Shown: positions 8,835 to 48,556 of the stretch, in pieces
How positions within the stretch are numbered: the stretch's first letter is position 1
Layout of the letters: each line of letters begins with the position of its first letter
Source of the DNA: Effrenium voratum
Taxonomy: Eukaryota; Sar; Dinophyceae; Suessiales; Symbiodiniaceae
Assembly: GCA_963377175.1 (NCBI GenBank)
Contig: CAUJNA010000513.1
Location: forward strand, 358,847-422,846
Direction: 5' to 3'
DNA: 64,000 nt
Translations under genes and position numbers: made by a program
Notes under the pieces: model-generated
What the model was told of the DNA's origin: nothing
Database searches by the model: none
Seen by the model: the letters and a program-made list of their open reading frames with translations, nothing else

Positions 8835-10420
8835 TCAGTCCTGAGAAATGCGAGCAGGGCCGCGTGTGGATTCGGATTCCCCCGGTGGTTTGCGTCCGGC
8901 TTGGTGTCCCATGCTTCCCGTTACCAGAACGGTAAAACCCAAACCAATCCAAACCACCGAGTAAGGGTAACCTGACGGATTGTAGACACTTCTCCAAAGA
9001 AACATGCAGGCTATATGATGTACGCCTTCCCTGAGTAAGTGGCATGTAAGCTGCATTACTCAAATTCTATCCCTCGAAGGCCATTTGAGGTCCGGCATTT
9101 GGAGGAACAAGTGGAAGCACAAAAATGCGATTCACCACCAATCCAAAATCAGGGCACAAATGATGTCACAAGCCCTTGCAACATCCAAAACAAATCTGCA
9201 GCTCCCGTCGCCTCCTGGTGCCTGTTGGGGTCATGGATGAACTTCCAGTGCAGCTGCTTGGCCTGCGCAAATAGCTCGGGGCATAATTTGTTTAGCTCGC
9301 TCTTTGAACTGCTGCGCCCCACACATGCATCATTTGGTACAGGCTATGCTCTGTCAAACACGTCAGTCTGCACACGTACGCGTGAGCGCTCGCCGCTCGC
9401 GCTCATGAAGCGGTGTGTCATGCATGTGGACCTGGTAGTCGATTGCAGTGGAACCAATTTTAACATGTGTGCTGACGATTGACTGCACTTGCGTGTAAAT
9501 ATGCCACCTTCTCAGAGTCAAACTTCTGACGGCACTCGGCACCTGGGCAAAGAGGTTCATGCTGGAGTCTGAGTGGCTTTGCTCCTGCCCCCTGAACCGC
9601 CACCTCGAAAATGTAAAGAGCAAACAAATTGCCATTGAAATGATGACAAGAACCCATCTGTATACGGAATGGCTCGTAGGAACTCCTTCAGCGACAAACA
9701 CAAACACACACACACACACACACACAGAGAGAGATACAGGAGCAAAACAAAAACCTATTTCTTACATATAATGGACGAGGTGTCACCTTTGAAAAGCAGC
9801 CGTGGCTTCGTAAGCTTCAGCAGTCCACACAGCGAAGCCCCTTGGCAACCAACCCTTTCCAACATGCAACCTTTGTTTCAAGGTCCTTTTGCTTTCTCTG
9901 AGAACCAGAAAAAAAGGCTGCCCGACCCCAGCACCCCAAGACTCGCCCGGCAAGCAACTTCAAGAAATGGGTACGTGTCGCAATAGCGGGGGCACAACAA
10001 AATAGTGGTCATGTTCCTTTGAATTTTGGAGGGTGTCTTCTTCCATTTGAATTCTGGCGTCCCTTTAAACCAACCCCAAGAGCGGACCCGTTTTCACCTC
10101 GCCAAAACAAGGGCCTTGTCAACTGCTTTGGACCCAAGCGACCGGGCCCCTCGACATTGAGGTCGGCTGTGACTGAGGCGGCAGCATTGGAACTTGGCGT
10201 CCACCTTGATACCCACCTCAGCTGCTCCAAGTCCCACCTCTCCCAAAAATATTCCACCCAGCCATAGGACCTGCAAACACCCCAGCGCCGAAACCAAACA
10301 ATCCCGGCAAGTTTGCAAACCCCGGACAGAACTCCACCGCGGATTCGCCGGGCTCCGGGCGTTCTGGGTGCTGCCATCGCCCGACTTGGCGGCATCGCTG
10401 ATCTCCATGGTCTCCGGCAT
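8835..10420 (-). CDS. Array gene 1: 60-aa C2H2 zinc-finger protein, five exons
   Basis: Coding exons on the minus strand, in order, are 10420-10361, 10216-10186, 9542-9508, 9262-9212 and 8840-8835 (60, 31, 35, 51 and 6 nt; 183 nt in all). The product is 60 residues: a polar N-terminus (MPETMEISDAAKSGDGSTQN), then VGIKVDAKFQ leading into one zinc finger with ligands C31, C34, H47 and H52 (C-X2-C-X12-H-X4-H), and the tail DPNRHQED. The C31 codon is split by the second intron; its last base lies in exon 3. Donors here are GC, GC, GT and GC; every acceptor is AG before G. Finger spacing and small size recall ZNF706/At2g23090-like proteins; binding partner and role are unknown. Exon 4 might end three bases earlier (GA donor), dropping Glu59. 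The model rests on six matching copies, not on transcripts. Confidence 0.85.
9700..9736. repeat. CA/GA microsatellite in intron 2 of array gene 1
   Basis: An (AC)n run is followed by AGAGAGA. Confidence 0.9.
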
Positions 10421-10429
10421 GCTGAGGAC

Positions 10430-10431
10430 CT
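10430..10431 (-). promoter_or_regulatory. Candidate spliced-leader acceptor AG of array gene 1
   Basis: On the minus strand AG precedes GTCCTCAGC and the ATG, giving a 9-nt untranslated stretch. All six copies have AG-GTC 7-12 nt before the ATG, with lengths that differ modulo 3, so this stretch is not coding. In dinoflagellates such a site usually receives the trans-spliced leader; a cis intron in the 5' UTR is the alternative. Confidence 0.55.
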
Positions 10432-10675
10432 CTGCCGGCGGCAAGGCCACTTCATGAGAACCATAATCAAAACCCGGTACAAAGGTGGTTGACCCGGAAC
10501 CATGTAAACAACTAAGAAGGCGGCTGCAGCTATTTATGGTTGGGAGCGTCCCTTACCAACCTTCACTTACCCGGGTTTTGATTGTGACACATGCGTCCTC
10601 CCCAAACGAACACAACCAGTAGTCCTGTCAGTTGCTCACATGAAGCTCAACGCTGCAGGAGGAAACAAAGGCACG

Positions 10676-10760
10676 ATTCATACTGTGGATGGACAAAATC
10701 CTGCGGTTTTGTAGGCGGTTTATCCCAGTGTTCAAATCGGGTGTCATCCATCCCAAATGG
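10676..10760 (+). repeat. Dispersed repeat with CATACTGTGGATGGACAAA core
   Basis: The core and the following GGCGGTTTATCCCAGT recur in part at 11127-11175 (plus) and inverted at 27127-27172 and 27290-27312. A shorter core lies inverted at 48364-48379. No coding capacity. Confidence 0.6.
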
Positions 10761-11126
10761 TGCTTCCATTGCAGCCCTCACATGAGCCCGGCCTTGGGGC
10801 AAAACCAACTTGACGCTGCCGTGGGCGAAGTGGCTGCGGGCATCAACTGATCTTGTAGGCGCCGGAATGCTTCGCAGCTTCGCAAAAATACTGGAATCCC
10901 TGCAGATAAGAATGGGATTTCGCCTCAACGTTTCGTCAGTCCTGTCCCTTTCAAAGCTTGCCTTTTAATAACTGTCAGCATGATTATACTAATAGCACAA
11001 CGTCCAGCTCCAGCGGCTCACTGCTTTTGCCAGCCCACTGTCTATCCGCGGGCTTCTCACTAAGCAATGGTCCAAAGAGACCTCAGGCCGCACAGCCAAC
11101 GACACCACCCAATGGGGTGGGGGGGG

Positions 11127-11175
11127 ACATACTGTGGATGGACAAAATCCTGCACTAGTTGGTAGGTGGCTCATT
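11127..11175 (+). repeat. Second copy of the CATACTGTGGATGGACAAA repeat
   Basis: Shares the first 27 bases with the copy at 10676 and then diverges (GGTAGGTGG remains). It lies between genes 1 and 2 of the array. Confidence 0.6.
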
Positions 11176-11431: not shown

Positions 11432-12930
11432 TCAGTCCTGGCCGGCTGTTGATGCGCTGAGCTGCTGACTACATTGAATCTGATTTTGCTCTCCCAGAAC
11501 AGAAGCGTGCCTTGAAAGTACTGCCACAAAGCAAGTTGATATTTACTGTATGCCTGGCACGCTGCTGTGTATGTAGCTACTGCCAAGCGCTAACAAATTC
11601 TTGCACTGTTCATAGACCTGGCGACACAGTAGCTTGATCTCCACGCAATAAGAAATTGGGGCCTGAGAAACTTGTTTACCAGAGTCACAAACGACCGCCA
11701 AACTTCCTAGGTTGCAAAGGCTGCGGTTGGCGTATTGGACGTCAGGGTCGAAAATACTTCAGAAGTGAAACCTACGCAAGCCGCTTCTGGCAAGTGTTTG
11801 TCTTATCGATAGTATTAAGGTCGCCACATCTAGTGCAACCAGAATCCCCCAACTACCCATGAATCAGAAATGGACTCCTTGGAATCAGCTGACTATCATG
11901 CTCCACTCTGGCGCAACTTTCCGCAATGCCTCAAAGGCCGAGCACTCAGGTGAGAGCGCTCCTTCTGCGCGGTCTCCGTTCTGTTGGAAATCATACAAAA
12001 TGCCACATGTAGTCGCCTCAACTCTGGCCGGTGACGCTCAAAACTACGCTACAGCCAGCGGCGTCGCTGAATGGACACGCGCAGGATCTTTTGGCCTCCG
12101 CGCGAGACCCAGGTAAAGTCCACTAAGATCGCAAGCGTAGCTGTTGCCAGTCTTTCTATGACCATGTATGGCCCCCCGCAAAACGGGTGCCAAAGGTTTG
12201 GCTACTGTCTGCAGATGATGCTAGCTGATGCGTTCGCCGAACATAAGCATGTCGTGGATCTCTTCCACGCCGCTCTGTGTAGACACCAGCTGGCTTGAAG
12301 CCTCCGCCCTTGCCTAGAGGAAAGGTTCAAGACCTCCGGCCACGCATGTCCCGCGCAGGTTCCGCTTGCGCAGGTCCGTCCAGCAACGTGCGCTTAAGCC
12401 TGGCAGCGCTCTCGAAGCTTCGGGTTTGGCTGACTGCATGACGCTCTGCCTACTTGTGATTTGCCGCACAAGCGCAGCTTCGTGCCCGTGCCTATGAAGA
12501 TTCAGTGGCTCAGCAGGCGAGCGCACGCACTGTCTCTGTTGACTGGCGGGCGCTGGCCAGGGTGATCTAAAGCCACTGATCACTTCCATCTCGGGCATGT
12601 GCCCTTCACGAGGGCTCCAGGTCTGATAAGGAGCTTGCAGCCTCGGAAGACATCGACTTGAGGCTTAGGCTGAGCCATGCTGAAACTACATCAAGAGCTA
12701 TCGTGGTCCATCTCCCTGTGTCTTGCACTTCCGCTCCGCTGCGCTTGCCGAACTCCACCAAAGTGTGCAAGATCTGTACAGAGGGAGTTTCAACAGAGAA
12801 GCCACCAGGCTGCGTCTCTGACTGTGCATCGACCGCAGCGGAACTTCAGATCAGGAAAGAGCCGCATGGGTGCCATCCCGGGTGGGAACATGATGTATTA
12901 TCCCACATATACATGTGTGTGTGTGTTGTG

Positions 12931-12961
<31 letters not shown>

Positions 12962-15557
12962 AATACCTATGCACGTAAATCAACGTCAGCATGAATGAAC
13001 AAATACATTCATGCACGTTTGTATCTGAAAGCCGGACAGTATCTTTCGAAGCCCACCAACAAATTGGTGCTAAAACAACACCTCTTGGCCCTCGTGCGTG
13101 GGTTTACGAAAAATCGGTTTGTTGCTTTGTTACCGTCTGTCCTCCTGGTGGCGGTTGGGGTCATGGATGAACTTCCAGTGCAGCTGCTTGGCCTGCAAAA
13201 CATGTTCAATGTTCCTCCACTGGGGCAAAGGAGGACCGGGAAGGACTGTGAAGGAATGCTCAGAGAAAAGCCGTCCTCCGCGGAGAAGCTTTCTGGCAAG
13301 TCCCCCCCTTGAAGACCAAAGGCCAAGATATGTTTCAAGAGTCTTAGATTAACGTCCTTTCCAAAGAGTTGCAATGTCAAGAAGGGGCAAACAAACAACT
13401 GTAAAGAGATTGACTGCAAGAAAGCAAGCAAGCAAGCAAGCAAGCAAAGGGCAGGGCAGGGCAGGGCAGGGCAGGGCAGGGCAGGGCAGGGCAGGGCAGG
13501 GCAGGGCAGGGCAGGGCAGGGCAGGGCAGGGCAGGGCAGGGCAGGGCAGGGGTAGCAGCAGGTGCAAGGGCAGTAGCAGGTGCAAGGGCAGGGCAGGCGG
13601 GCAGACATGTGCAAGTGTGTCCCATCTGAGCAAAGCTGATCTCTTCAAGTTCTGGGCAGAGCGCCACACGTCTTCCGATCAGTTGATACGGAACCAGGCC
13701 AATCCACCAGAGTGGCCGCTTGACTCGCTTTCCTGTTACAGAATCAACGGATAATTTGGCTGACTGAATGGCAAATTCATGTCCCCAAGGAAAGTTCCGT
13801 CCTCGTCTCCGGTGGCCAAGTGCCTCTTTAAGCACACTTGAAACCTGAGACATCCTCCGACCACAGAAGGGCTGACTACCTCTTAAAGCACACTTTATTC
13901 AAAGGGCCATCAGGGTTCCTATACCCTCCACCGGAAGGTTGCCCTCGAAAATGGCCGTTGCCCTCTGGAAAATGGCGATTTTCGCTTGGTCTGGTGGAAA
14001 AGAAACCATGTTTCAAGTTAAATCCAAACTGGCCCAAAGGAAACCGTATGTCAGGGGCTACGATATGTAGAGGGAGCGAGAGCCATAAGGCTTTCAACTG
14101 GTAAAGTGGCTACAGTGGCCGCATTTGGAAGCTCGGCCATTTTTAGGGCCCCTCATTTGGGTATGGGTCAAAATGAAACCACCTGGATATGGGCCGCAGG
14201 TTGTACTCGTCTCCATTCACCAGGGAAGCACATCTTGGGGTTACCCTACTTTTCGGCCATGCCCAAAATAGTGTTTCTCAAAATACGAGACCCTACCAAA
14301 CGGGCCATGGTTCCTTTTGCCGCCCCTTCCAAACCGTGAAAAAAAGGGTACCCCCCCTGTCCCCCCCCCAACCAAAAACAAGAAAAAACAACACGAGAGA
14401 ACACGAGCCACGCCCAAAGCCGCCGCGGACCTTCTCAGAGTCGAACTTCTGCCGGCACTCGGCGCCTCGGAGTCGGGTCACACGCCCGAAGCTTTGCCGG
14501 TGTCAACCAACAAAAACGAGTCCGCTAGCGTGTCCCATCACATGCCCTCAAACGGCCAAGGGGTCTAAGAGTCTTAAAGCATCACACAAAGGAAACTCCA
14601 ACAAACCATGGTGCCCGGCGAAAACACCGAACATGCCGTCTGAAGCTGAAAAAGAAATTTGGAGGTCTGGGGTTGATTTAAGACAAAGGCGCGGAATCGA
14701 GGAACAGTTGGCTTTGGTGCCCTTGTCCAACTTCGTAGAGTCTGCGCCCTGTGTCCTTGAATAAAAAGGAATCTAGGCGGGATACTAACTGCGAGGGCAA
14801 CATGTTGACGAGACTTAGCTCTGAGGACCTTAAGGGATTTGATCGTCTGGACCCTGCTGCTGTCAAAGGGATCCGCTTGAAACGATCTCGCAAAGACTCA
14901 TTGACGTCCGGTGTCAATATCTTCCTCAGCAGAATGAAAGTCTGCTCCCAGGCCCCCAAGTTGAAGGCCCAAACGCTGTAAGGCTGCGAGGCTGCAATGT
15001 CAGGCGGCAAAGTGAACCAAACACAGGGCAGAGACGAGCCACAGGCCTTGTAAGTACGTAACATTCTTGCAGCTTTGGCCATAAATGTTGACTTGCCCGA
15101 ATGCCCGACAGCACGTCCTTCCAAGAGGAATGCGTTGAGCGAAACAGCAAGCTGCCAGCCAAGCAAGCCGGTCAAGCAAGACAGAAGAAGCAAGCACGCA
15201 GAGAAGTGGCGCCTGATGCTTCCGACACGATTCCCAGCCAGTGCGTTCCATACAAATCAGATTTGCCAGACCTTCCGCCTGGGGCGCGCGCACTGGAATT
15301 TGGCGTCCACCTTGATGCCCACCTGGAAAGCTCTCGGCGCAGTGATTCACAGCCTCTGCAAACACAAATTCCCAGCAACGCAAGCCCCACACAAAAATTC
15401 CGTTCTCCAGACCATCCCAAGTTTGCCATGCCCCGCGCACCCGCGAAAACGAAGTGAAATCCATTTCGCGGAGGGCTTCCAGACTGAGCCGTCGGGCGTT
15501 CTGGGTGCTGCCATCGCCCGACTTGGCGGCATCGCTGATCTCCATGGTCTCCGGCAT
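11432..15557 (-). CDS. Array gene 2: 60-aa C2H2 zinc-finger protein, five exons
   Basis: Exons on the minus strand are 15557-15498, 15322-15292, 14465-14431, 13192-13142 and 11437-11432. The product is identical to that of array gene 1. Silent differences include AAA for Lys28 and CGG for Arg35. Donors are GC, GC, GT and GA; acceptors are all AG-G. The introns (175, 826, 1,238 and 1,704 bp) show no clear similarity to those of other copies. The third intron holds a GGGCA pentanucleotide array (13447-13551). The stop lies about 1.0 kb from the start of gene 1, the tightest intergenic gap of the array. A long open frame at 15000-15791 runs through exons 1 and 2 and their intron and is not a separate gene. 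Confidence 0.85.
12929..12959. repeat. TA microsatellite in the last intron of array gene 2
   Basis: An (AT)n run directly after a GTGTGTGTGTTGTGAT stretch. Confidence 0.9.
13420..13551. repeat. AAGC and GGGCA microsatellites in the third intron of array gene 2
   Basis: About six AAGC units are followed by about 21 perfect GGGCA units. The intron transcript (minus) reads TGCCC repeats. Overlapping open frames are artefacts. Confidence 0.97.
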
Positions 15558-15564
15558 TTCGGAC

Positions 15565-15566
15565 CT
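15565..15566 (-). promoter_or_regulatory. Candidate spliced-leader acceptor AG of array gene 2
   Basis: Minus-strand AAG precedes GTCCGAA and the ATG, so the predicted leader-to-ATG distance is 7 nt, the shortest of the six copies. Confidence 0.5.
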
Positions 15567-18473
15567 TGGAATGCGATGCGCCAAATCTGCATGGAGTCTG
15601 GAGGCAGAGCTCAATGGGGGAACTCGGCGTCTTTGCCGGTGTGATTCGAGTACTTGTTGGAATGAGGGACGCTTTGGTGAGCGTGGTTCACATGGAAGGC
15701 TTTTGTGCACCCACCATGATTTGGGCATTCCGATACTCCCGATTAATGTGCCCCAGCTTTCGTGCACCCTGAAAAGGGTCGCAGGTCGCACTGGCAGTGG
15801 GTGGACATCTGCACCATTCTTTTTGCGGACTTCAGACGGGGTTGATTCTCAAGGGTGAGGTGATTGCAGCAATGAGGTCCGCTTTTGCAAATGAACCACG
15901 TTGAGCATGAGTTCGGGTGAAATGAGATATCTGGCAGCTTGACAAAGCAGCGATTTGTCCCCTCTCTGGGCATCCAGCCTGGCAAAAACGCTCCCGCAAA
16001 TGGACGCTTCCCGCGAGAGCACAGTGGCTTGTCCGAACACAAGCGTCAAGCAGTCTGATCCAGCCACGACAAATGGCAAACCAAGCCGCCGGAATACATT
16101 CGGGGCCCAAAATTACGGGGCCCAAAACTGGAGGTGTCCGTTCGATTTCCCTCGACAACCAACCAAACGCAAAGCGAGTTGAGCAAAGCGAGCTCGCCAA
16201 ACATGACAAAGCATTTGCCTCTATATGCGCTCTGTTCCCTTCTTGTCAATTGACTGCGGTGGATGCCTGAACAGCAAAAACAAGCCAGCTTGGAGCTGCC
16301 AAAGCTCTTTGCGCGGACAGAATCGCACCTGATGAAGTTCCCTCTGTTTACTCTGGGCAAGCTTTGGGCGGCAGGATGCTGCAGCCGGACTCTTCCGTTG
16401 CTGAATCGGTCTCAACACGTTGCAAAATACTGAGAACTCGATCGAACAAGCTAACCACTGCATGCTGTTACTGTTGCTCAGTGTTGACAGCAGCTGTTAT
16501 TTATATATTATAATAATAATGATAATAACAATAATAGTAATAATAATAATAACAATAATAATAAACTAATAATAATAATACATAAATAAATAAAAATAGA
16601 ATAATAATGATAATAAATAGCAATTATAATACTAAATAATAATAATAATAACAATACTAATAATAATAAAATAATAAAATTATAAAATAGTAAATATATG
16701 TTTTAATAATACTATCAATAATAAAATCAATAATAATTAAAATAGCAATAATAATAATTAACAATAATAATAATAATAGAATAACAATGATAAAAATAAA
16801 AATAAAAATAAAAAAGTTGTAATAATAATAATGATAATGAACAATAATAATAATAGAATAATAATAATATAATAGTAATAATAATAATAATAACTCAGCA
16901 CCACCAGAACCAACACTACGCTACCACCAACCGCAAAACTAACGCAACTGCCAGCCAGGCGCAGCAGCAACAGGAGCAGCTACCTCTACGTGAAACAAAA
17001 CCGAGGACCCTTCCTAGGTCCTCCAGTAGAGAGGTTGGAATAAGGGTACCCGAGTTTTCTTCTGTCGTCCATTTTAGTAGGAGAACCCTCCCAACCAAAA
17101 AGGGGAGAGAAGGGCACCTAGCTGGGGGACCTGGCTTCGGCCTTGTGGCAATTAGATGAATCCTCGAAATTGGCCGGCCAGAATTCAGAAAATGGAAAGA
17201 AGGCATACTCTGCAATTTGGACATGGTGCCTTGTCTCTTTACAATGGTGTTGTCTTTTTAAAACAACACACAGGGTACTCTCAAAAAACCTCTTCTGATG
17301 TGTGGATGTGTGCGCTTGGGGAACATCAAAACCAAACGAATTCTTGAGTTTATGTCTGGGGCGTGGCTGTCCGAACCAGATCCTGTTGCAATTTGGACAA
17401 ATGCGTGCATCTGTTCAGAGACAAAAGTTCCTCTGCCAAATACTCAACAGGGATGAAGGTTCCAAGCTGGTATTATACGCCTCACGCACTTTTTGTCATG
17501 CTTTCACGCGCTGGCCGCCGCTTACAAGATGCAAGCGGGCAAGATACTCCGAAAAATCGAAGCCAGTTCTCCCTGGACACTCCTTGCTGTGCCAACAACT
17601 TCCAAACACGACCAAGAGCTTGTTAGATACAGTTCAACCCAAGGGTCATGGGAGGATTAGATGGTGATCTCGCCAAGAACTGGAGCCGGGAAAGTCTCCC
17701 AACGGAGGCTCCGCCGGCAAAAGCCATGGGCCCTATGGGGCTTGATCCGCGCCGGTACCCCATTGCTCCCCATCTGCAGGTGTCAAGCAAAGGCATCCCC
17801 CAAAAATGGCGGTTCTTGATGGTTTCCCCGTAAAGCCAACCAGAAGAGGGTTCCAAAAACTGACAAACCAATGTGGTAACCTTGGTTTAATCTGTCAAAC
17901 TCGCCCTGCATCATGAGGAGCAAATAAATGGATCGCTTGTTTCAGCGCGGAGCGCTTGCTGCAGTTGTGCAAGCCGTCAGTCAGATCTGTGCGTCTGCCT
18001 CACATACATGCCGCGCATACACACGTCCCACACGCATTCCTTTTTTTTGAAGCATGAAATAACTTGGACAACTCATCCTGCTTTGTGGACTGGGTCGTAC
18101 TTGCAGCAAACTGATTGAAGTCTGTTTGTGCTTGATATGTCCATCTCTCTACTGTGGAGCTAGGACAAGTCCCGGTACAAAACTCTTCCAAAAACAGGAA
18201 AAGACAGCTCTAGCACTTCTGCCCGCTGAACCTCTGGCATGCCGCATTCACAAGTCAGAACATGTCAGAAAACCAAACGCCAAACGCTCGCTCTTTCCCC
18301 CCTGAAAGTTGGTAGCCCTTTCAGGGCTTTCACGCAGCAATTTTCATGGCTCCACCACGGCTCTCCTTAGTTGTGGCTCACACTCCAAGATTCCAACTGC
18401 CGTAACTAAAAGTAATACAAGCCGCGGTGATAGAGAGCAACCTCTTCAAATCTCCGAGGCTCCCGCATGCAGA
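15567..18473. other. Intergenic region between array genes 3 and 2, with AAT-rich tract
   Basis: An AT-rich stretch of AAT/AATA repeats spans about 16495-16895. A near-palindromic CCTCC-type motif lies at 17694-17712. No convincing gene. Confidence 0.6.
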
Positions 18474-21400
18474 TCAGTCCTCTAGCGGATGAATTTGTCT
18501 TTTCTACAGGGAGGGGGCGTTGTAAGCAAGACAAAAACGCGATTTTGTCACCATGACAAGGTGCAATGTTACCACGGCAGAAAAAAAGCGGTACAGCGAT
18601 ATGTTTCTTGCGGGCTTATCCCGACAGGCAAGGAAATAGAAATGAATAATAAGGTCAATACAAAGTATTCAGAAGGAATAAGAAGGTCAATAGAAAGGAA
18701 TAAGAAGGAATGAGAAGGTCAATAGAAAGGAATAAGAAGGAATGAGAAGGTCAATGGAAAGGAATGAGAAGGAATGAGAAGGTTAATAGAAAGGAATAAG
18801 AAGGTCAATCGCAAGGAATAAGAAGGTCAATAGAAAGGAAAAAGAAGGAATAGGAAGGTCAATAGAAAGGAATAAGAAGGTCAATAGAAAGGAATAAGAA
18901 GGTCAATAGAAAGGAATAAGAAGGTCAATAGACAGGAATAAGAAGGTCAATAGAAAGGAATAATAAGGAATAAGAAGGTCAATAGAAAGGAATAAGAAGG
19001 AATAAGAAGGTCAATAGGAAGGAGTAAGGAATAAGAAGGAATAAGAAGGTCAATAGAAAGGGACAAGGAGGTCAATAGAAAGGAATAAGAAGGTCAATAG
19101 AAAGGAATAAGAAGGTCAATAGAAAGGAATGAGAAGGAATGAGAAGGTCAATAGAAAAGAATAAGCAGGAATAAGAAGGTCAATAGAAAGGAATAAGAAG
19201 GAATAAGAAGGTCAATAGAAAGGAATGAGAAGGTCAATAGAAAGGAATAAGAAGGAATGACAAGGTTAATAGAAAGGAATACGAAGGTCAATAGCAAGGA
19301 ATAAGAAGGTCAATAGCAAGGAATAAGAAGGAATGAGAAGGTCAATAGAAAGGAATAAGAAGGAATGAGAAGGTCAATAGAAAGGAATAAGAAGGAATGA
19401 GAAGGTCAATAGAAAGGAATAAGAAGGTCAGTAGAAAGGAATAAGAAGGTCAATAGAAAGGAATAAGAAGGTCAATAGAAAGGAATAAGAAGGAATAAGA
19501 AGGTCAATAGAAAGGAATGGGAAGGTCAATAGAAAGGAATAAGAAGGAATGTGATTCATTGACCTTCTCATTCCTTCTTATTCTTTCTATTGGCCTTCTT
19601 ATTCCTTTCTATTGACCTTCTCATTCCTTCTTATTCCTTTCTATTGACCTTCTTATTCCTTTCTATTGACCTTCTCATTCCTTTATTCCTTTCTATTGAC
19701 ATTCTTACCTTGTCGGGATAGTCTTCACTGAAACTTGTCGGTGTAACGATGTTCTTTGTCGTTGTAACATGTTCTTTGTCGTGGTTACAACCCTCTCTAT
19801 TCCACAGGATACCCTCTGTAAGTCTTTCTGCATTGTTCTGCAAGGGTGGCAAAGCGTCTGCTGGCCAGATGCTTTAGCCATTCCTTTATTCCTTTCTGTT
19901 GACATTCTTACCTTGTCGGGGTAGTCTTCACTGAAACTTGTCGGTGTAACGATGTTCTTTGTCGTTGTAACATGTTCTTTGTCGTGGTTACAACCCTCTC
20001 TATTCCACAGGATACCCTCTGTAAGTCTTTCTGCATTGTTCTGCAAGGGTGGCAAAGCGTCTGCTGGCCAGATGCTTTAGCCATTCCTTTATTCCTTTCT
20101 GTTGACATTCTTACCTTGTCGGGGTAGTCTTCACTGAAACTTGTCGGTGTAACGATGTTCTTTGTCGTTGTAACATGTTCTTTGTCGTGGTTACAACCCT
20201 CTCTATTCCACAGGATACCCTCTGTAAGTCTTTCTGCATTGTTCTGCAAGGGTGGCAAAGCGTCTGCTGGCCAGATGCTTTAGCCAAGTGCCAATCCATC
20301 AGACTCTGCAAAAAAAAATGAAGCACGTGCAGCAGTACGTGAGATCAAATATCATGGAGCCATGGCTATTGCTCATGGAACGAATCTTTGCAGCACCGAA
20401 AGCAGGTTCTAAGAGGAAAGTCATGTCCACACCCGGCCTTTCCAAACAAACAAACAAAAACAGCATGCGGTCTCCTCCTGGTGGCGGTTGGGGTCGTGGA
20501 TGAACTTCCAGTGCAGCTGCTTGGCCTACGGGAGCTCTCTCCGCTCGCTTCCGCCTCGGCCCTTTCGGCGCCTTCTCAGAATCGAACTTCTGGCGGCACT
20601 CGGCGCCTGCCGGATCGGGAGGCCAAAAAAAGCAAAAGCAAAAGAAAAAACAAAAAAACGGAAAAATCCGGTCTCAAGATTGCCAGCGAAGGAACTCAGG
20701 CAAACAAACCCGCGGCAGAAAGATCAACGCTCGACATGACGATTTGTGTGCCGCGGCTGTCTGCCATGAGCAGCAGGCCAGCGAGAAGGTAGGCAGGTGG
20801 TCAACGTAACAGCTAAAAAAGAAAATCAAGATTCTGCAGCCCGGAAATACTCATTGAAGAATTGTAGTGGACAAAGAGGCAAAAGGAAGGACTTGGAGCG
20901 TGGTACTCCGTCTAACTTGCATAGCTGCAAGTTCGCAGTGTCTGACTGGGGCACGCACACTGGAACTTGGCATCCACCTTGATGCCCACCTCAGCTAGAA
21001 TGCAAGAAAGCCCCTGCCTCACCACCATACTGTGGTATTGAAGTGGATGATGACTATAATCATGCAGTGCTGATAATGTTACAGTTTCAAGATGATCATA
21101 TTCTGCAATGTGTATATATATATATATATATTATCAGATTTATTATTTTCTAAACGTGGCTAAGTGCTTGAAGGTTCTGGATTCGCCTCCCTCTCGCCCT
21201 ACACTCCTGCATTTGGCAGGTGCTTCATTGGACCTGCCAAAGTAGCCCCATCTCGTGTTCCTTGCGCTTTGCGCTGAGATGTGCATTTCATCTCAAGCTG
21301 CCTTGGGCATCTGCCTTGACCAAAGGCGGTTCCTAGGCAGGAGAAGTTGGCTCATTCCACGCATTGGTTCTTCCCCACCTTGCCCTTTGCGGCGGAAAAT

Positions 21401-21507
21401 CTGAACATTGGCTCGCGAGTCTCTTCGCATCTCGCTGGGATTCCGGCGTTCTGGGTGCTGCCATCACCGGACTTGGCGGCATCGCTGATCTCCATGGTCT
21501 CCGGCAT
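18474..21507 (-). CDS. Array gene 3: 60-aa C2H2 zinc-finger protein, five exons
   Basis: Exons on the minus strand are 21507-21448, 20989-20959, 20606-20572, 20525-20475 and 18479-18474. The protein is unchanged from the other copies; differences such as TCC-GGT in exon 1, GAT for Asp26 and GAT for Asp39 are silent. Donors are GC, GT, GC and GA. The third intron is only 46 bp (20571-20526), far shorter than its counterparts (245-5,567 bp). The last intron (1,995 bp) holds an AAGG-rich satellite, its inverted continuation and three 203-bp repeats, all between the penultimate exon and the final Asp-stop exon. Confidence 0.85.
18650..19550. repeat. 22/32-bp AAGG-rich satellite
   Basis: The core unit AATAGAAAGGAATAAGAAGG plus TC (22 bp) alternates with a form carrying one extra AATGAGAAGG or AATAAGAAGG block (32 bp). 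About 35 units. It lies in the last intron of array gene 3. Confidence 0.95.
19556..19690. repeat. Inverted continuation of the AAGG satellite
   Basis: From 19556 the same units run in reverse (TTGACCTTCTCATTCCTTCT). RNA from either strand could fold into a stem of about 130 bp with the adjoining array. Confidence 0.93.
19677..20285. repeat. Three tandem 203-bp repeats
   Basis: Units 19677-19879, 19880-20082 and 20083-20285 are nearly identical. Each begins with ATTCCTTTATTCCTTTCT, derived from the adjacent satellite, and ends with GCCAGATGCTTTAGCC. They keep a minus-strand frame open across units, without evidence of coding. Confidence 0.95.
21111..21132. repeat. TA microsatellite in intron 1 of array gene 3
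   Basis: A pure TA run between exons 1 and 2. Confidence 0.85.
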
Positions 21508-21519
21508 GGCGCAAAGGAC

Positions 21520-21521
21520 CT
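21520..21521 (-). promoter_or_regulatory. Candidate spliced-leader acceptor AG of array gene 3
   Basis: Minus-strand AAG precedes GTCCTTTGCGCC and the ATG (12 nt). The 12-nt stretch closely resembles that of gene 4 (GTCCTTGGCGCC), so these two copies may be recent relatives. An AAT microsatellite lies about 65 bp further upstream. Confidence 0.55.
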
Positions 21522-21663: not shown

Positions 21664-23320
21664 GATTTAGGACTGTGACCGGTCCGGGGAGTGCGCAATG
21701 CTTTGCGCATGGCTGACCTCGCCCCCCCTCCCAAGGCTGCCCGGCCTTCAGGCAAAAACGCAGACGCTGACGCGGCGCTTTCCGTATGGGCACAATGGCT
21801 GCCAAGTCGATGCTTGGAAAGGCTTCCCTCGTGGCTTCCTGTTTAGACCCACCAAAAATTGACACGACTCGGTGAAACGCAAAACAGTTCCGTTGGATCG
21901 GGGCGGGGCGAGGCTTGGCCTGGTTTGCTTGGGGCACCCCGGCAAGCAGTATGGGTGTGTCTTTGTTTGAGGCTTGGCACCCTTGTTTTTTGCGGTTTTA
22001 AAGGGAAACCAAAAGGCCAATTTATTGGGTCATCCAAAAGAAACACGCGCCACCCGTATCCTGCCCCTTACACCAACCTAGGCCAGGGACCGGCCTGCGG
22101 CCCGTATCCAAGCCCGTATCCAAGTAGAACCTCTATTTGATTTTGATTGGGGTTAGCCCAACTCCTTTCTCGTGGGAATCCGAATCACTTCGGTGACCCA
22201 GCACCAAATAAAACCCCAGAGAATGCCTCCTGCAAGTCTGTCCAGCTAGGCAATTCCTGGGCAAACCGAGTCGCTCTACTTGCGAATCGCCCGAAAGCTC
22301 GGAACGGCAAACCGGGCGGCCACGCACTTTTGCCTTCTTCGCATGGCTGCCACAGATCAAGAGCGGCTTCTCTCGGGACCGTTGAAAATGTGCCGAAAGC
22401 AAATCGACTCTACACCTGCCAAAAAAGAAAAGGAAACCGGATGATGCTAGTACCCCTCCCACACGGGTGCTCTTCTGCACAATAGTCCCTCTGAGAACCA
22501 GAGCCGGCAGCAGCCTCCTAATGGAGGCGTTGCCAGCATCAATGGCCCATGGCGCTGTGCAAGGCTCAGTCTGCAATCCGCCTCAGCGACGATTTTTTTC
22601 CGTGCTCAAGCCGATGTTGTATACATGTACATGTGCATGCGCAGGCACATAGATAGGCATGTGCACATGAGCATGCATGTGTGCGCAGCATTGCACTTCA
22701 TGTCATTGCATTACGCAACATGCACATAAACCTGTGCTGATGCAATTGTGCATGTCACAATATGCTGAGAATGAATCAACCGACCACAATGCCACATGAA
22801 AATTGCAATGCTAGTGCGCCTGTGCGATCAGTTGAGCCTCTGCCGCGCAATTCGACTTGTTCAATCTGGGGGTCTCCGCAGTAACCCTGCCGTCAAACAG
22901 GCAGAAGCAGCTGTTCGATTCTCTGACCGATGTTTGCAAACTCCAATCTTTGGACTAGCCACAAACTCGGAACATGCAAATGGCAAGATGAGGCGCCCAG
23001 ACTTTCTTTTCTTGGCCGGCCGGAAACCACCAGGTTGTTGCTTTACTGACGTAAAGCGGCCATCCCCTTGCTCATCTAAAAGCCAGACCGTCTACTTGGT
23101 GATCAAGTGTGGCATTCCCAGAGTTGCTATTCGGGACTTCTTGGGGTGTGTCTTATAATTTTGTAAGGACAAAACAATGCTGGTTTTCGTTTTGGTCCTC
23201 ATTCAAAACCACAATAAGGGGGTGCCAACTCCAAAAAAGGCACACCCTCTTCTCAAGGGTACACCATGGATCTGAGGTGTCAATCCGAGCGGAGAAATAG
23301 CTGGGGCTCCTGCACGCAAA
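21664..23320. other. Intergenic region between array genes 4 and 3
   Basis: It contains a foldback repeat copy (about 21955-22050), the CCTCCTAATGGAGG motif (22516-22529) and a stretch of alternating CATG/CACAT words at 22617-22760. No gene recognised. Confidence 0.5.
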
Positions 23321-25930: not shown

Positions 25931-25942
25931 GGCGCCAAGGAC

Positions 25943-25944
25943 CT
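25943..25944 (-). promoter_or_regulatory. Candidate spliced-leader acceptor AG of array gene 4
   Basis: Minus-strand GAG precedes GTCCTTGGCGCC and the ATG, leaving a 12-nt untranslated stretch. Confidence 0.5.
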
Positions 25945-26295: not shown

Positions 26296-27186
26296 GCCGG
26301 TTCCCGAAAAAATATCACACCCATGGGGAATGGTCCTTGATTGGCTAGTCAACGAAACCAGCATGAAACACGCCGGTTAAAAATGCTTGATGTTGAGACC
26401 AACTCACTCGCAATCTAGCAACTGCTGTTCCAGTCAACCACAAGTGGAGCGGAGGTGGATTTGAAACACCCAAGGTCCGAAAGCTTCGCAAAACCCCCCA
26501 AAAAAAACGTCAACTTCTGCCAGGCCGGCACTGAGTTCAAGAGAGATGACTCAACCACTCCATAGATGAAATTTTGAGTTCTCCATTGAAAATAGTGTGT
26601 TAGCGAGCGTGAGAATATTGAGCAACCAGTTGTCAATCACCAGACACCCCCGAAACCCCTCAAGTCGCTCAGGCCTTGAGGCAAAAACGCAGACGAGCGC
26701 GCGGGTTCGGCGTGGGTAAACAGCTGCGAGGTTAGTATCTAGGAACAACGTCGAGTCAGAGCCGGTCAAGCAAGAAAGGTTTTGCTTTGGGATCTAGATA
26801 ATTCAGCTCTTCTTGCATCTCATCTTCAGTTTGCAACCATCCACAAATGAAATGGGTGTCAGCCTTCTCAAGATTGCATATGGGGGGTTGATCAAAACGT
26901 CCTTTACATGGGATCGCCATTGGGGAAAACCACGAAAAGGCGATAATTCCCACCAAATGGGCAAAGTTACCCATGGTCGTTTTGGGGCCAGGAATATTGA
27001 TCAACCCGCATGTGTGTCTCTTTCGACCAAAAGGAAACTCATGTTTAAATGGCCAGCGCAAATGTGTGGTCGATTGAAAAGTCACAAGGGCAAAAATGCT
27101 GTCAAATCCTGTACCAGTTGGGCTATGGTGGGATGAATAGAACCCTACGAGTACTGGGATAAACCACCTACCCCCTTTCAAACAAA

Positions 27187-27265: not shown

Positions 27266-27509
27266 GAGGATATGAACTGGTGCAGACCTTTGTCCATCCA
27301 CAGTATGAGGACCTCTGACAGTCCTAGCAGCTGCTGAGCCTTTCTCGCTGCACTGCTGAAGGCACGCGAGGGTGCAACGAATCAAAAGTTGGCTCTCGCG
27401 GGTCGATCTCTCAAGTATCCAACTGCACCCAGACACCTGATACCAACTTGAAAGGAAACCGGAAGCTAGACCACCTCGGTGTTCGTGGAGAGCGAGTCCC
27501 GAGAACCGC

Positions 27510-27541
27510 AGCCGGCAGGCGCCTCCTAATGGAGGCTTTGC
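27510..27541 (-). repeat. Near-palindromic CCTCCATTAGGAGG motif downstream of array gene 5
   Basis: Minus-strand GGCAAAGCCTCCATTAGGAG recurs with changes at 22512-22534, 45690-45712 and 17694-17712. Each lies 0.4-1.2 kb downstream of the stop of array genes 5, 4, 6 and 3. Role unknown. Confidence 0.55.
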
Positions 27542-27964
27542 CAACATAATTGCCCGGCGCAGGGCTCAGACAGCCCGCCTCGGTGAGCGTGGAAATACTT
27601 CGGGAATCCCTCCAACAACCCGCCTGTGCAAATGTGTGGAAATTCCGGGCCTTGCATTGGCATATTTTCCCTAAAGGGGGCATCAACACTTTGTGAGATA
27701 CAAATTGTTCAAAGGGGATTCTCCCAAGGAAAGATGCGTCAGTAATCCCTATGTAGTAGGTGCATCACAAATCTGAAAAGCAAAGCTTTCGGCCTCACTG
27801 AGTCTTGGCCGATATCCCCCCCTGTTCCACTTACGACTCATGACCTCTTCGGGAAACTTAAGTGCCACGTGTCAGCAACAATCAGCAAGTCGACAAACTT
27901 GGTTCAATTGCACAGGCGCTGTTCAGGCAGATACCAATGCGAAACTGCTGAGGCTGCGCACGGA

Positions 27965-33900: not shown

Positions 33901-34646
33901 GGATTCGGACTGGGACCCAAACAGGGGGTGCTCCTTTAAAACCTAGCCAAAAGACGGGTGGTATCCTCACAAAAAGACGGAGTCTCATGTTCAATGAACC
34001 TCAGGTCAAGCCTCCAACCCCCCTGTCAAAAGCACTAGGCAAGGCGGCATGAGAGTACTGGATGGTGGCTGCATGCAAGCGCGATTGTCTGGGGACTTGC
34101 TCCAAGCGATCTGGCGATGTGGAGAGAGATGTTCCTTCCGCTTCCCAGCAATTTTCGTGCAGAGCATGCAGGGAATGAGGGAATGACCCCTATCCATCCC
34201 CTATGGTTTCCTTCAAGGAAATCCCTGGGTTCATTCCATTTCTCACTCCCGACCCATCGCACCAGCAAGTTAAATCCTGAGCCGAGCACACTGGAACTTG
34301 GCGTCCACCTTGATGCCCACCTACTGGGGTCACTTCCAAAAACGCCACGAGCCAATCACCTGGCTGCTGACATGAGTTGTTTGTGAGTATGATTGTCCAT
34401 CCCACGTTTTTCCCCCGCAGATGCTTGCGAAGCAAGCGGTCCCGAGAAAGAAAAGCATCGCATTTTCTGGGCTAAAAGCCTAAAAACGATCCTCAGACCA
34501 CACAAACTCTGAAGTTTGCCAACTGCGCAAGCTAGAATGAAAGGGACGTCGGCCGGTCGAGGCCTCCCACCTTTTGGGATCCCGGCGTTCTGGGTGCTGC
34601 CATCCCCCGACTTGGCGGCATCGCTGATCTCCATGGTCTCCGGCAT
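27965..34646 (-). CDS. Array gene 5: 60-aa C2H2 zinc-finger protein with a 5.6-kb repeat-filled intron
   Basis: Exons on the minus strand are 34646-34587, 34320-34290, 33835-33801, 28233-28183 and 27970-27965. All exons and splice signals are intact and the 60-residue product is unchanged. Donors are GC, GT, GC and GA. The third intron (33800-28234, 5,567 bp) separates the two zinc-binding Cys codons from the two zinc-binding His codons; it contains the 48-bp minisatellite and the 0.52-kb tandem repeat. Whether so long a repetitive intron is spliced efficiently is open. The intact exon sequence argues that the copy is, or recently was, functional, unless gene conversion maintains it. The Copia element starts about 430 bp upstream of the candidate spliced-leader acceptor. 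Confidence 0.82.
28852..30186. repeat. 0.52-kb tandem repeat, about 2.6 copies
   Basis: Units start at about 28852, 29368 and 29896 with GAAACAAGTCTGAGACACAG. The second unit has a roughly 12-bp insertion (TGGTGACTTTGTGG region). The third is cut off after about 285 bp, where the 48-bp minisatellite starts. No known element recognised. Confidence 0.92.
30187..33372. repeat. 48-bp minisatellite, about 66 copies
   Basis: The unit combines CGCATGTCACGAGCGTCCAC, CGCGCCAGTCTCGCTCGCGG and GCGGTTTC. As 48 is a multiple of 3 and the unit has no stops, frames of up to 1,015 codons stay open on plus, with 16-residue periods on both strands. Units at 32341-32825 are nearly identical; others carry indels. 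It fills most of the third intron of array gene 5. Confidence 0.97.
33373..33605. repeat. Degenerate tail of the minisatellite, GCCGTCCCCCCAGCCAGCC type
   Basis: Fragments of the 48-bp unit (AGTCTCGCTCGCGGGCGGTT) alternate with CCCCCCAGCCAGCC blocks about five times. Confidence 0.85.
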
Positions 34647-34656
34647 CGCTGAAGAC

Positions 34657-34658
34657 CT
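34657..34658 (-). promoter_or_regulatory. Candidate spliced-leader acceptor AG of array gene 5
   Basis: Minus-strand CTTGCAG precedes GTCTTCAGCG and the ATG (10 nt). This copy has the most pyrimidine-rich stretch before the AG. Confidence 0.6.
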
Positions 34659-44844: not shown

Positions 44845-44849
44845 GAAAC
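44845..44849. repeat. Target-site duplication GAAAC, right copy
   Basis: Matches 35084-35088 and fixes the element's outer border, so the LTR ends in TA rather than CA. Confidence 0.88.
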
Positions 44850-46836
44850 CAATCGACCCCCCCTCCGCACCTCAAAAAGCAAAGCCCGCAGAGGCGCAAG
44901 ACTTACGTGGGAGCTATGGCTGCGGTCAGCCTTTTGGCTGGACGGGTGAACCCCAGTTTCAAACAAGATCGCCCATGCCTTCTCGGATTGTACTCGGCTT
45001 TCGCTGTTGACACACCTTTCGTTTCATATCTGCAACACTTCTCTCGAACCTCGAAGCCCGGAAGTTGATGTTGGGTCCCGGGAAATGCTTCCATGACCCT
45101 GGGCTTTACCCAGGGTCAAATGTTAGGTGAAGTAACCCAACTCATCAAACACTCGCACATGTTTGAACATCCCCGTGAACAAGTGCTTTGACTTATTCTT
45201 TGTGGGGGCCGGAATGCAATGCGAACCACCCCGCCAAGCTTTTGTTTCAAACCAGGAACAGAACTTGCAGCTGAAGCGAAACAGCTTGTGTTTGTCGGAC
45301 CATCCTCTTCAAAAAGGCACCTTGTCCACAAACATCCTGGATTGAAGGAGCCCTGGAAAGAATGGTTGGAAGTGTCCCCCAGAACCTTGTCCACTTCCAT
45401 TGTTGGAAAACGGGTAGCCTTGAGGCCTCACTCTGAAAAGCAGGCGCTCGCTCAGCCGCTTTCTTTCACGGCTTCTCAAGGTGCAAGCTGAAGAATCGCA
45501 CAGACCCGGTCCTCTTGGGATCCCTCGTGCCAATCAATGGGGTGTGTCTTTTTTGATGGGACCCCCTTTTGGGTGTTTTTTTGAAGGAGACCCAAAAGGA
45601 AAACCACCATGTTGGAGGGGTCCCCCAAAAGAAAGACGCTCTCTTTGGCTATCAAGAGATCCCACAGGAGACCACAAGCCGGCACCCGACTCCCAATGGA
45701 GGCTGTGCCAACCAAAGCTTTTGAAATCCCTGCGTTGCCATGAGCACTCCAGCAGCCCATCCACAGCTGATCTGGCAATAAACTTTGAGAGCCGTATTTG
45801 GAAACCATACTCAAGCACAAAGCATTCCTTGCTCACTCAACGCACCGGCCTGCTCTTCACAATTAATCCATCAGATCTGCCCATCCACCTTCGCTGCATG
45901 CAACATCACAAGCCACACCGTTGCACAAAACTCCATCGCCCGCAGAAGTTCTCTGTTTGCCAGTTGAGGAAAACGGGGGTCACTGGATTTCCCCTTCAGC
46001 AGTTTCCCCTTCAAAGGTTGATCAATGTACCGGTGAATTCCACCGAAGCTGCCACTTTTGAAGGTGCAAAAAGAGGAAATGTATGATCCCTGGAAAGTGA
46101 TGGAAAGGTCAATCAAGTACGGCAATGGCTCATGGAACGGCGAAGAGGCACTAGCACTGCAAATGTGATTTGATTCATGTGGACCCCGGATTCATAAGCT
46201 GGTTCTATTCTTGGGTGCTCCCCTCCAAAAGTGATGAATCCCGGATTGAATCCCCCAAAACCCAGGGCTAACATTGCTTGATGCCTTCCAAACATTCAGT
46301 ACCAGCAACTGAGAACAAAGACATTTCCCGAGGATCCGGCAGTTCAAAAAGACACTAACACGAAGGGAAACGCGCACGAAGACTCCAGGCCAAAAACCCC
46401 AAAGCATGTCAGCAATCATGGCAATGCATGCTTTGACCCTCAGCAGCTGATCGGTTTGCTTTTGTGTCTTGGAGTTGTTTGATGTTTGGGGTGTATGAGA
46501 TCCTGCGTTGGCTTGTTGTTCTTTTTCGGGGGGGGGCACAACATCAACAGGAATGATACTGAGTGACAGGTGTGTTTTCAACATTTGAAAACAACTTATG
46601 CACTCGTCAGAGTCCATCCCACTCTGTACTTGTTTGTGTAAACACACGTTGGATGGCTAGGAATGACTCTCGGAATAACTCGGAATGTCTCCACTCGCTT
46701 GCTTTTTGGATGGGCTCAGCATGCGCCGTAAAACATGCCGCTTCTCCCTGACTTCTGGCCGAGCAAATTCCCAAGCACCAACTCCAAAGCCGCGAAGTCG
46801 CCCAAGAGACGAGATCCATCCGAGGGCCCTGCGAGA
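44850..46836. other. Intergenic region between array genes 6 and 5, right of the element
   Basis: Apart from a foldback repeat and a CCTCC-type motif it contains nothing recognisable. Confidence 0.5.
45542..45640. repeat. Foldback repeat of about 100 bp (family type copy)
   Basis: The left arm GTGTGTCTTTTTTGATGGGA pairs with the right-hand end (GGGGTCCCCCAAAAGAAAGA); an inner pair is TTTTGGGT and ACCCAAAA. No coding capacity, so it resembles a MITE or foldback element. Confidence 0.75.
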
Positions 46837-48544
46837 TCAGTCCTGAGAGGCCCCGAGGGGGCGGTCCCAAAACAACCCCAGCAACCCCAGCGAACCTGCC
46901 CGGAACCCCACCCAGCACCGGGCCGCCTCAAACTGCAGCTTAAAAAGGCCCAGGTCTGGCAATCCTCTTCCAATGTCAACTTGGGGGTACCAATCAGAAG
47001 AATCCCCCTATGAACTCATTCCCCAGGCGAAGGCGATCTCCTTTCAGATTCATCAGACTTCGGCCATAACTTGGACGGCTCATATTGATTCTCTATGGGT
47101 ACCTTCCCCATTCTTTCCAGGGATCCTTCTTTCCAGAAAACCTCCGGAAACCGGAAAAAAAAGCAGCCGGTTTTTGGAAAGAACGATGGTTGAAAAGAAT
47201 GGCAACGGAATCAACCCCTAGGGATTCGGCAAGACCTGCAACACGCCTTGCGATTGGCAACCCCTCCTCCTGGTGCCGGTTGGGGTCGTGGATGAACTTC
47301 CAGTGCAGCTGCTTGGCCTGCACCAAGCTCATCTTTTAAAAAAAAAAGAGGTGAAAGTCTTCTCACCCAAAATGAAAAGGAATTGCGCAACCCCTGCTTC
47401 TGCGATTCTGACTCCTGGAAACCGACAAGAGTCAAAGATCAGGAATATGGTCTGCTTGAGGGCAGCCCGGCTGCGAACAATAAACTTCAACCCGTTCTTT
47501 CTAGCGGTTCCCCTTTCCAACAAAAAGGTTTCACCCTCCAGGGACGCTCTCTTTGCCCAGCCAACGGCTCTGCCGACAGGGAATTGGGGGTGCGTAAAAA
47601 GTCCCTGCGCTGCTAGCCACTTCCGCGACATCTGGCGTTGGTGTACTGACATCCTCAATGGGTAGATTCTCCGGGCAGATGCCAACCAGTCCGCAGCCAA
47701 ACCAGCGGTTGTCACAACCAGCACAAGCCCAGCCAGATCATATCCCATGTCCGAGCCACTTCGCGGCCTTCTCAGAGTCGAACTTCTGGCGGCACTCGGC
47801 ACCTAAGACAAGCCCTTTGGCGCGACTCAAGGTGGATAACGACAAGCGGGTGTGAGTCTGTGTATGTGCGTATGCTTTTCCTGAGGGCGCCGATCCCTTT
47901 GGGTTCTTTAAAGGAGAAGAGTGAAACCACCAGTTTGGAGGTCCCCCGCCCAGTCCAAGACAGCAGCCCCGAACTGGTGCCAACTTAAATGCACTCAACC
48001 ATTAAATCGTCCAGAGTTTGAGAAACGGCTGACCTTCAGGCAATGCAAATCCTTCAGCATCCTTGAATAACTGCGCGGAAACTGCACCAAGAGTCCTTCG
48101 TTCAGCACCTGAGATGCGAGCACTGGAACTTGGCGTCCACCTTGATGCCAACCTTGGCCAAGGAAATTGCTATACCCGAGCCAACGGGCATCCCAGACTC
48201 CGAAACCCGGTAAATCCGTGTTCCATGGGCCCAAAAACACGGGGCGGCAAGCCAGAAACCTGAAGACCGTTCCGAAACCCTATATGACTCCCTACCAACA
48301 AACGTGATGGTTTCATGGTGATGGTTTCAACCCATTCATTTGGGGGTGCGAAATGGATTTCGCAACCATCCACAGTATGACAAGGCGTGGACCGTATAAA
48401 GCCGTGCCAGACAACCTCAATCAACATCCCCAAGCTGGCTTAGGACTGTCACACCTCTCTTGGCCAATTTGTAGGCTGCCAGGCGTTCTGGGTGCTGCCA
48501 TCACCCGACTTGGCTGCATCGCTGATCTCCATCGTCTCCGGCAT
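46837..48544 (-). CDS. Array gene 6: 60-aa C2H2 zinc-finger protein, five exons
   Basis: Exons on the minus strand are 48544-48485, 48152-48122, 47802-47768, 47317-47267 and 46842-46837. It is the most 5' copy in the array. It has the most silent changes in exon 1 (ACG for Thr4, GCA for Ala10, GGT for Gly14) and GTT for Val21, yet encodes the same protein. Donors are GC, GC, GC and GA. The introns are compact (332, 319, 450 and 424 bp). Gene 5 lies 12.2 kb downstream, of which 9.76 kb is the Copia insertion. No further copy was found to the right. Confidence 0.85.
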
Positions 48545-48554
48545 GGCGTCTGAC

Positions 48555-48556
48555 CT
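48555..48556 (-). promoter_or_regulatory. Candidate spliced-leader acceptor AG of array gene 6
   Basis: Minus-strand AAG precedes GTCAGACGCC and the ATG (10 nt). The upstream stretch is not clearly pyrimidine-rich. Confidence 0.5.

Follow-up and report, generated by a model that had tools for sequence, protein, structure and literature searches.

How can one small protein be kept unchanged in six neighboring genes when each gene is broken into exons too short for ordinary gene finding? The question is raised by a 64,000-nucleotide (nt) window of Effrenium voratum, a free-living dinoflagellate (PMC11114475; contig CAUJNA010000513.1, positions 358,847 to 422,846), in which a preliminary description, rightly guessing at a dinoflagellate, proposed a hidden tandem array of genes for a 60-amino-acid (aa) C2H2 zinc-finger protein. 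We confirm that the window holds a six-copy array of intact five-exon genes, each encoding a single C2H2 finger. Our overall reading, which we consider very probable, is that one gene is present in six copies that all appear to work, with transcripts that receive a spliced leader and a product kept identical by selection, and that the product would serve as a docking or localization module.

Six intact copies of a five-exon gene

A scan of both strands of the whole window at up to 30% mismatch returned exactly six matches to each consensus of exons 1–4, all on the minus strand and in constant order, and no match to any of the four on the plus strand. A 6-nt stop exon, GACTGA, lies directly after an AG on the 3′ side of exon 4 in all six copies, so that the proposed recurrence of four blocks and a stop block in fixed order was borne out. 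Exon lengths are 60, 31, 35, 51 and 6 nt in every copy, none exceeding 60 nt as had been claimed, and the blocks join on the minus strand in matching phases into a 183-nt coding sequence that specifies the same 60 residues and a TGA stop in six of six copies, MPETMEISDAAKSGDGSTQNVGIKVDAKFQCAECRQKFDSEKAKQLHWKFIHDPNRHQED. The last two bases of codon 31, which lie beyond an intron, are GT in copies 1, 5 and 6 but GC in copies 2–4, and either way the codon reads Cys, as first noticed. The copies, all on the minus strand, are:

Copy 1: 8835..10420 (−), exons 10420-10361, 10216-10186, 9542-9508, 9262-9212, 8840-8835 (exon scan and splicing)
Copy 2: 11432..15557 (−), exons 15557-15498, 15322-15292, 14465-14431, 13192-13142, 11437-11432 (exon scan and splicing)
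Copy 3: 18474..21507 (−), exons 21507-21448, 20989-20959, 20606-20572, 20525-20475, 18479-18474 (public model P0001)
Copy 4: 23321..25930 (−), exons 25930-25871, 25742-25712, 24908-24874, 24492-24442, 23326-23321 (public model P0070)
Copy 5: 27965..34646 (−), exons 34646-34587, 34320-34290, 33835-33801, 28233-28183, 27970-27965 (public model P0036)
Copy 6: 46837..48544 (−), exons 48544-48485, 48152-48122, 47802-47768, 47317-47267, 46842-46837 (exon scan and splicing)

With same-strand copies and identical proteins, the locus is a tandem gene array, with four introns per copy, spacers of 1,011–12,190 base pairs (bp) and no further array exon in the ~10 kb on either side of the window at up to 34% mismatch. 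The five-block joining put forward in the preliminary description is supported because uninterrupted 60-aa relatives from Pfiesteria piscicida (P0022), Kryptoperidinium triquetrum (P0023) and Pelagodinium (P0006) carry exactly the order and frame of the array, and the public model P0001 joins exons 1–4 in the same way. The shared strand and order, together with one spacer of just 1,011 bp, could also suggest a single large gene, or an array of exons used in mutually exclusive fashion; we regard this as extremely improbable, since an ATG, a stop and a candidate leader acceptor are present in every unit, and the relatives are complete 60-aa proteins.

Three public E. voratum models are mis-modeled versions of copies 3, 4 and 5, and none gives the correct 60-aa product, although they independently join several of the same exons. 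Two stretches of P0001 lie exactly in copy 3, across exon 1 and at the exon 4 read-through, and a third, upstream piece was not found as one stretch; the model joins exons 1–4 and then runs through exon 4. The P0070 tail lies exactly 3′ of copy 4, its extra GERESSAE being the end of copy 4 intron 1, and the model takes an early splice acceptor and adds an exon from farther downstream. P0036 begins within exon 1 of copy 5 in the wrong frame, with a different start and a GT donor. The family is hidden in the sense that no exon exceeds 60 nt, and databases do hold it, mis-modeled in these three cases.

Splice acceptors are AG in all 24 introns, and donors are GC in 14, GT in five and GA in five, making 19 of 24 (79%) non-GT. 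The donor of intron 1 is GC throughout; at introns 2 and 3 some copies have GC and others GT, and at intron 4 five copies have GA and one has GC. PMC11453091 and PMC5177918 describe the same GC, GT and GA donors with AG acceptors in Symbiodiniaceae, and the former quotes a non-GT share of 25–74%, slightly below that of the array. The array further differs in that paralogues can have different donors at a given intron (introns 2, 3 and 4). The four introns would be removed by the GC/GT/GA–AG splicing known from these algae.

Dinoflagellate spliced leaders join at AG. In all six copies an AG/GTC (the slash marking the possible junction) lies 7–12 nt before the ATG, compared with ~1% of 18-nt windows, and we regard it as a candidate trans-splice acceptor. 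The region between the junction and the ATG is not coding, because its length varies among copies (7, 9, 10, 10, 12 and 12 nt). The candidate spliced-leader acceptors are:

Copy 1: 10421..10431 (−), 9 nt 5′ of ATG
Copy 2: 15558..15566 (−), 7 nt 5′ of ATG
Copy 3: 21508..21521 (−), 12 nt 5′ of ATG
Copy 4: 25931..25944 (−), 12 nt 5′ of ATG
Copy 5: 34647..34658 (−), 10 nt 5′ of ATG
Copy 6: 48545..48556 (−), 10 nt 5′ of ATG

No spliced-leader relic occurs in the window at up to five mismatches to the full leader; two near matches to the 12-nt leader end lie in a retrotransposon long terminal repeat (LTR) and in the upstream block of copy 4. Each copy would be transcribed from its own strand, with a spliced leader attached at the AG that immediately precedes GTC, and six copies would raise the dose of one messenger RNA (mRNA). 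That most copies are instead pseudogenes or untranscribed relics, with mRNA coming from one or two, might be suggested by public models that are wrong at an end or junction in three copies, but is very unlikely given six intact frames with zero replacement changes, AG/GTC kept in every copy, and splice dinucleotides that fit known classes at 48 of 48 positions.

We searched the assembly (1,155,904,702 bp, 3,699 contigs; whole-genome counts are lower bounds) with the protein and obtained at least 16 matches, 13 in the array contig and one each in contigs C3447, C2190 and C3181. An intact dispersed paralogue lies at C3447:53055-49472 (−), with six exons encoding MPETMEISDAAKSGDGTTINVGIKTDGKFQCAECRQKFDTEKAKQLHWKFIHDPNRHQED and ending in TAA. 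It shares the four intron positions of the array, has an extra intron splitting codon 14, and differs from the array protein at five residues. Its donors are GC, GC, GC, GC and GA, and its leader, AG/GTCCTCGCCATG, follows the same AG/GTC...ATG pattern. Its introns are unalignable to those of the array except for an element shared with copy 6 intron 4. Contig C2190 carries a fragment of exon 4 and intron 4 that is 88–89% identical to copy 6, and the C3181 match was rejected as another C2H2 gene.

Silent divergence and non-coding turnover

As the preliminary description stated, all base differences among the six copies are silent; they fall in 18 of 60 codons. Pairwise synonymous divergence (dS) ranges from 0.168 to 0.501 (mean ~0.30), and at least 21 silent changes stand against zero replacement changes. 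By our own arithmetic (~147 replacement and ~33 silent sites) this bounds the ratio of replacement to synonymous divergence (dN/dS) at ~0.03. Shuffling codons within amino acids ruled out codon bias alone as the reason for the low dS: the copies differ at 7.73 codons per pair, whereas 5,000 shuffles averaged 13.87 and never fell below 11.87, so that codon choice is position-specific.

Introns behave differently from exons. We compared 60 same-position intron pairs, cut at 1,500 nt, and required a score above all 20 shuffles with z above 5. One pair passed, on a 20-nt match; nine more were slightly above all 20 shuffles (z up to 4.4), compared with an expectation of about three. Simulated neutral introns at a divergence of 0.3 gave mean scores of 45–329, compared with at most 15.4 for shuffles, and at 0.5 with many insertions and deletions 130-nt introns become indistinguishable from shuffles. 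Similarity between copies stops within 10–20 nt of exon edges. Since introns are essentially unalignable at a mean dS of ~0.30, the rebuilding of non-coding DNA has outpaced change at silent sites, a pattern that repeat-driven turnover combined with exon constraint fits. Selection on the protein would purge nearly every replacement change while introns and spacers are rebuilt, the visible agents being repeats, a satellite, a foldback element and a retrotransposon.

The preliminary description offered strong purifying selection or exon-level gene conversion as explanations for the identical products. Selection alone suffices, given zero replacement and at least 21 silent changes. Exon-level homogenization by gene conversion, perhaps from complementary DNA (cDNA), has in our view a smaller though appreciable chance of being what keeps the products identical. 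One point in its favor is that constraint within the array exceeds that seen in the comparison with the dispersed paralogue: replacement and silent changes stand at 0:21 among the six copies, whereas copy 2 and the paralogue are separated at 10:17 (Fisher P 0.0026); counted by codons, the figures are 0:18 and 5:14 (Fisher P 0.046). Position-specific synonymous codons, unalignable introns and two pairs of silent sites that are phylogenetically incompatible by eye (codons 31/52 and 38/56) point the same way. However, similarity ends 10–20 nt from exon edges, where conversion tracts would be expected to overrun; the copies still differ, with dS of 0.17–0.50; at three of the four incompatible sites the change is C/T, which could have arisen more than once; and conversion from cDNA should erase introns, yet none is lost in any copy.

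The claim that intergenic DNA as well as introns cannot be aligned held for introns and failed for the flanks, where two blocks recur. An upstream block (GTTTTTGCC...AAGGCC) lies 5′ of copies 3, 4 and 6, less surely of copy 1 and weakly of copy 2, and is a promoter candidate only, for which a TTTT box would be the relevant element. The copy 1 block was chosen by eye and built into the profile, so that its profile score is not independent. A downstream stem-loop block lies 3′ of copies 4, 5 and 6, with shorter or weak matches at copies 3 and 1; covariation did not convincingly support the stem-loop (term +0.72, double change in five of 23 pairs, five sequences), and no Rfam family reached its gathering score anywhere in the window. 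The blocks, scored where indicated by expectation value (E), are:

Upstream block, copy 3: 21693..21833 (−), flank comparison and profile
Upstream block, copy 4: 26620..26759 (−), flank comparison and profile
Upstream block, copy 6: 48932..49073 (−), flank comparison and profile
Probable upstream block, copy 1: 10741..10869 (−), z 4.5 with copy 3, below threshold
Weak upstream block match, copy 2: 15955..16029 (−), E 0.018
Downstream stem-loop block, copy 4: 22422..22639 (−), flank comparison and profile
Downstream stem-loop block, copy 5: 27441..27638 (−), flank comparison and profile
Downstream stem-loop block, copy 6: 45601..45785 (−), flank comparison and profile
Shorter downstream block match, copy 3: 17670..17724 (−), E 0.0005
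Weak downstream block match, copy 1: 8095..8143 (−), E 0.063

Repeats and mobile elements lie in and around the array. An LTR retrotransposon at 35089-44845 (+), which we assign from its reading frames to the copia class, has LTRs of ~99 bp that are 98% identical and a 5-bp target duplication, GAAAC; it is inserted ~440 bp 5′ of the copy 5 ATG and fills the greater part of the 12.2 kb that separate copies 5 and 6. Copy 5 intron 3 spans 5,567 bp and holds a 48-bp G+C-rich satellite (30183-33370, ~67 units), whose long open frames on both strands look like periodic artefacts. A foldback element of ~130 bp at 47092-47221 lies in copy 6 intron 4, with a relative in opposite orientation in intron 4 of the C3447 paralogue, and the C2190 exon 4 fragment ends near the element edge, as if the element had carried exon sequence along. 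Among introns searched for the related terminal-repeat sequences that mark introners, the foldback occurs in two and the other compared introns have no clear similarity. Interstitial TTTAGGG-like telomere-type repeats lie at 3816-3984.

Family, fold and a candidate C-terminal module

The product has the classical C2H2 motif, with ligands C31-X2-C34-X12-H47-X4-H52 and core residues F38 and L46, and from its sequence would bind zinc; both Cys columns are at least 90% conserved in a 30-row family alignment. One finger in 60 residues sets it apart from multi-finger transcription factors, which have at least two. An AlphaFold2 model of a 90% identical relative (P0003) predicts a ββα fold with predicted local distance difference test (pLDDT) values of 88–90 across the finger, and the top Foldseek matches of the model are CTCF fingers (probability 0.96–0.99). 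P0003 reached no Pfam cut-off, and a PDB sequence search returned just generic fingers and weak chance-like matches. A ZNF706 or zf-met2-type assignment was rejected, being absent among the three Pfam hits of the array protein (E up to 10) and among 25 of the 26 families matched at E up to 1 by 23 relatives. The array protein is most likely one ββα finger that would bind a putative protein or nucleic-acid partner.

A first protein search returned 60 proteins (E up to 1), the named organisms being E. voratum, Symbiodinium natans, S. pilosum, Symbiodinium sp. CCMP2592, Pelagodinium, Pfiesteria and Kryptoperidinium, all dinoflagellates. A profile search scored 7,992 candidates and found 205 proteins; among the 120 matches listed, it adds S. 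necroappetens and, by taxonomy identifier, Alexandrium minutum and Amphidinium massartii. Four stretches of viral contigs matched a pattern, and none encodes a relative. A single-exon gene model exists at a 306-nt locus (P0008), which we take from its Skav prefix to be Fugacium kawagutii. Judging from read-through models, intron positions appear to differ between genera: the point of divergence is after residue 56 in the Symbiodinium models, but after residues 24 and 43 in P0197. A sister form without CxxC and with both His (FKSPVTNQ...LHLKYLHDPKK...VEE) recurs in P0074, P0076, P0090 and similar proteins and also stands at the C-terminus of the sulfite-oxidase/nitrate-reductase-type proteins P0165, P0182 and P0185, and thus the sequence is kept without CxxC. 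In the E. voratum genome, a search for this form gave four weak matches, all in array exon 1, and introns may hide it.

The finger also occurs at the end of longer proteins. A search of these gave 65 matches (E up to 0.01), of which 31 carry PF00174 and/or PF03404 (sulfite oxidase/nitrate reductase type), seven ankyrin, four MOSC, two FHA with RINGv and one ubiquitin (Polarella glacialis), with no domain in 20. Of these 20, 13 were scanned; P0153 reached the MOSC cut-off, two had MOSC below cut-off and P0138 reached the SH3 cut-off. From 199 proteins pooled across the family, profile and longer-protein searches, we drew the 72 with at least 75 residues before the module, and in 68 it lies within six residues of the C-terminus; P0063 and P0064 among the 72 are probably stand-alone genes with read-through leaders. 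In P0161 the module is N-terminal. For P0142, a fused sulfite oxidase, the structure model (mean pLDDT 68) has a low-confidence linker at residues 372-387 and then a finger whose ten-residue blocks reach pLDDT 84–91. In P0166 (P. glacialis; partial model), ubiquitin ending in LRLRGG is followed directly by the module, a layout that resembles ubiquitin–ribosomal-protein fusions. Because the same module is C-terminal on unrelated proteins, we propose that it would act as a portable docking or localization domain, with the stand-alone copies supplying a free form.

Most fused proteins come from short contigs and the porin-like P0093 looks odd, as would be expected if fusions were artefacts of chimeric assembly, and the sulfite-oxidase-type frames read at L020–L023 in the E. 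voratum genome stand without the module. We judge artefact improbable, since 31 of 65 matches are of one enzyme type (of the 26 that were aligned, the other 25 are 34–76% identical to the first), several sources are represented, two module forms occur, and the 68 of 72 C-terminal placements are consistent. The module on enzymes is kept as a lead, suggested by sequence, because most fused records lack organism assignment and the E. voratum frames L020–L023 show no fusion.

Comparison with known systems and implications

Tandem arrays and GC/GA donors are already known in dinoflagellates, as PMC2488372, PMC5177918 and PMC11453091 attest. According to PMC2488372 (Bachvaroff & Place 2008), which deals with arrays such as those of actin, PCP and luciferase, the general class is intron-poor with short spacers, and psbO is an intron-rich exception; Karlodinium spacers of 1.5 and 2.7 kb are also given. 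Like the arrays described there, ours has same-strand copies, near-identical products, mostly silent differences and candidate leader sites before the ATG. In contrast to the general class, it has four introns per 183-nt coding sequence and spacers of 1.0–12.2 kb, and its introns differ wholly between copies, unlike those in the arrays described there. The uncharacterized C2H2-type protein A3E3N2 of Pfiesteria clearly belongs to the same family (60 aa, 78% identical, same HQED C-terminus); the database listing of this protein and its relatives names neither function nor array, and no text in the literature searched contains HWKFIHDP, IHDPNRHQED or A3E3N2. With classical fingers (CTCF; EEA1 C2H2-Rab5) the array protein shares the metal-ligand spacing and the predicted ββα fold, whereas it is a single finger below Pfam cut-offs with its own conserved flanks, EISDAAKSGDG and HDPNRHQED.

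Several observations weigh against our overall reading. Splicing, leader addition and per-copy expression are predictions from genomic sequence, and the AG/GTC pattern was picked out post hoc. A search of the surroundings of the dispersed paralogue recovered neither flanking block (best E 1.6). The array protein falls below every Pfam cut-off (best 15.3 versus 27 bits for PF23612 and 14.3 versus 27 for PF13894), and no Foldseek match reached E 0.001 (best 0.25, for a finger of ~25 residues). Most fused forms come from metagenome or transcriptome records, and sulfite-oxidase-type frames of at least 250 aa at L020–L023 (four of 16 non-array matches) lack the module, where introns could hide a module exon. 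The best sulfite-oxidase match, L020 on contig C2223, lies among long overlapping frames that look bacterial, and the assembly may hold bacterial contigs.

A more speculative proposal, which we think is probably wrong in at least some part, is that the array protein is the free form of a dinoflagellate-specific C-terminal module. Such a module would have passed between genes as short exons, partly through exon-capturing repeats as at C2190, and would tag molybdenum enzymes (sulfite oxidase/nitrate-reductase type, MOSC), FHA-RINGv, ankyrin and other proteins for common docking or routing, with the array setting the supply of free module that competes for a shared receptor. Judged by title, no paper on the module with molybdoenzymes was found.

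These data reveal a gene family wrongly annotated in E. voratum, where the three identified models miss the true 60-aa product. The array offers a natural experiment for testing splice-site choice in dinoflagellates, in which one product is reached although paralogues vary among GC, GT and GA donors at shared introns. If confirmed on genomic loci, the module on molybdoenzymes and signaling-type proteins would represent an undescribed shared targeting or docking system in dinoflagellates.

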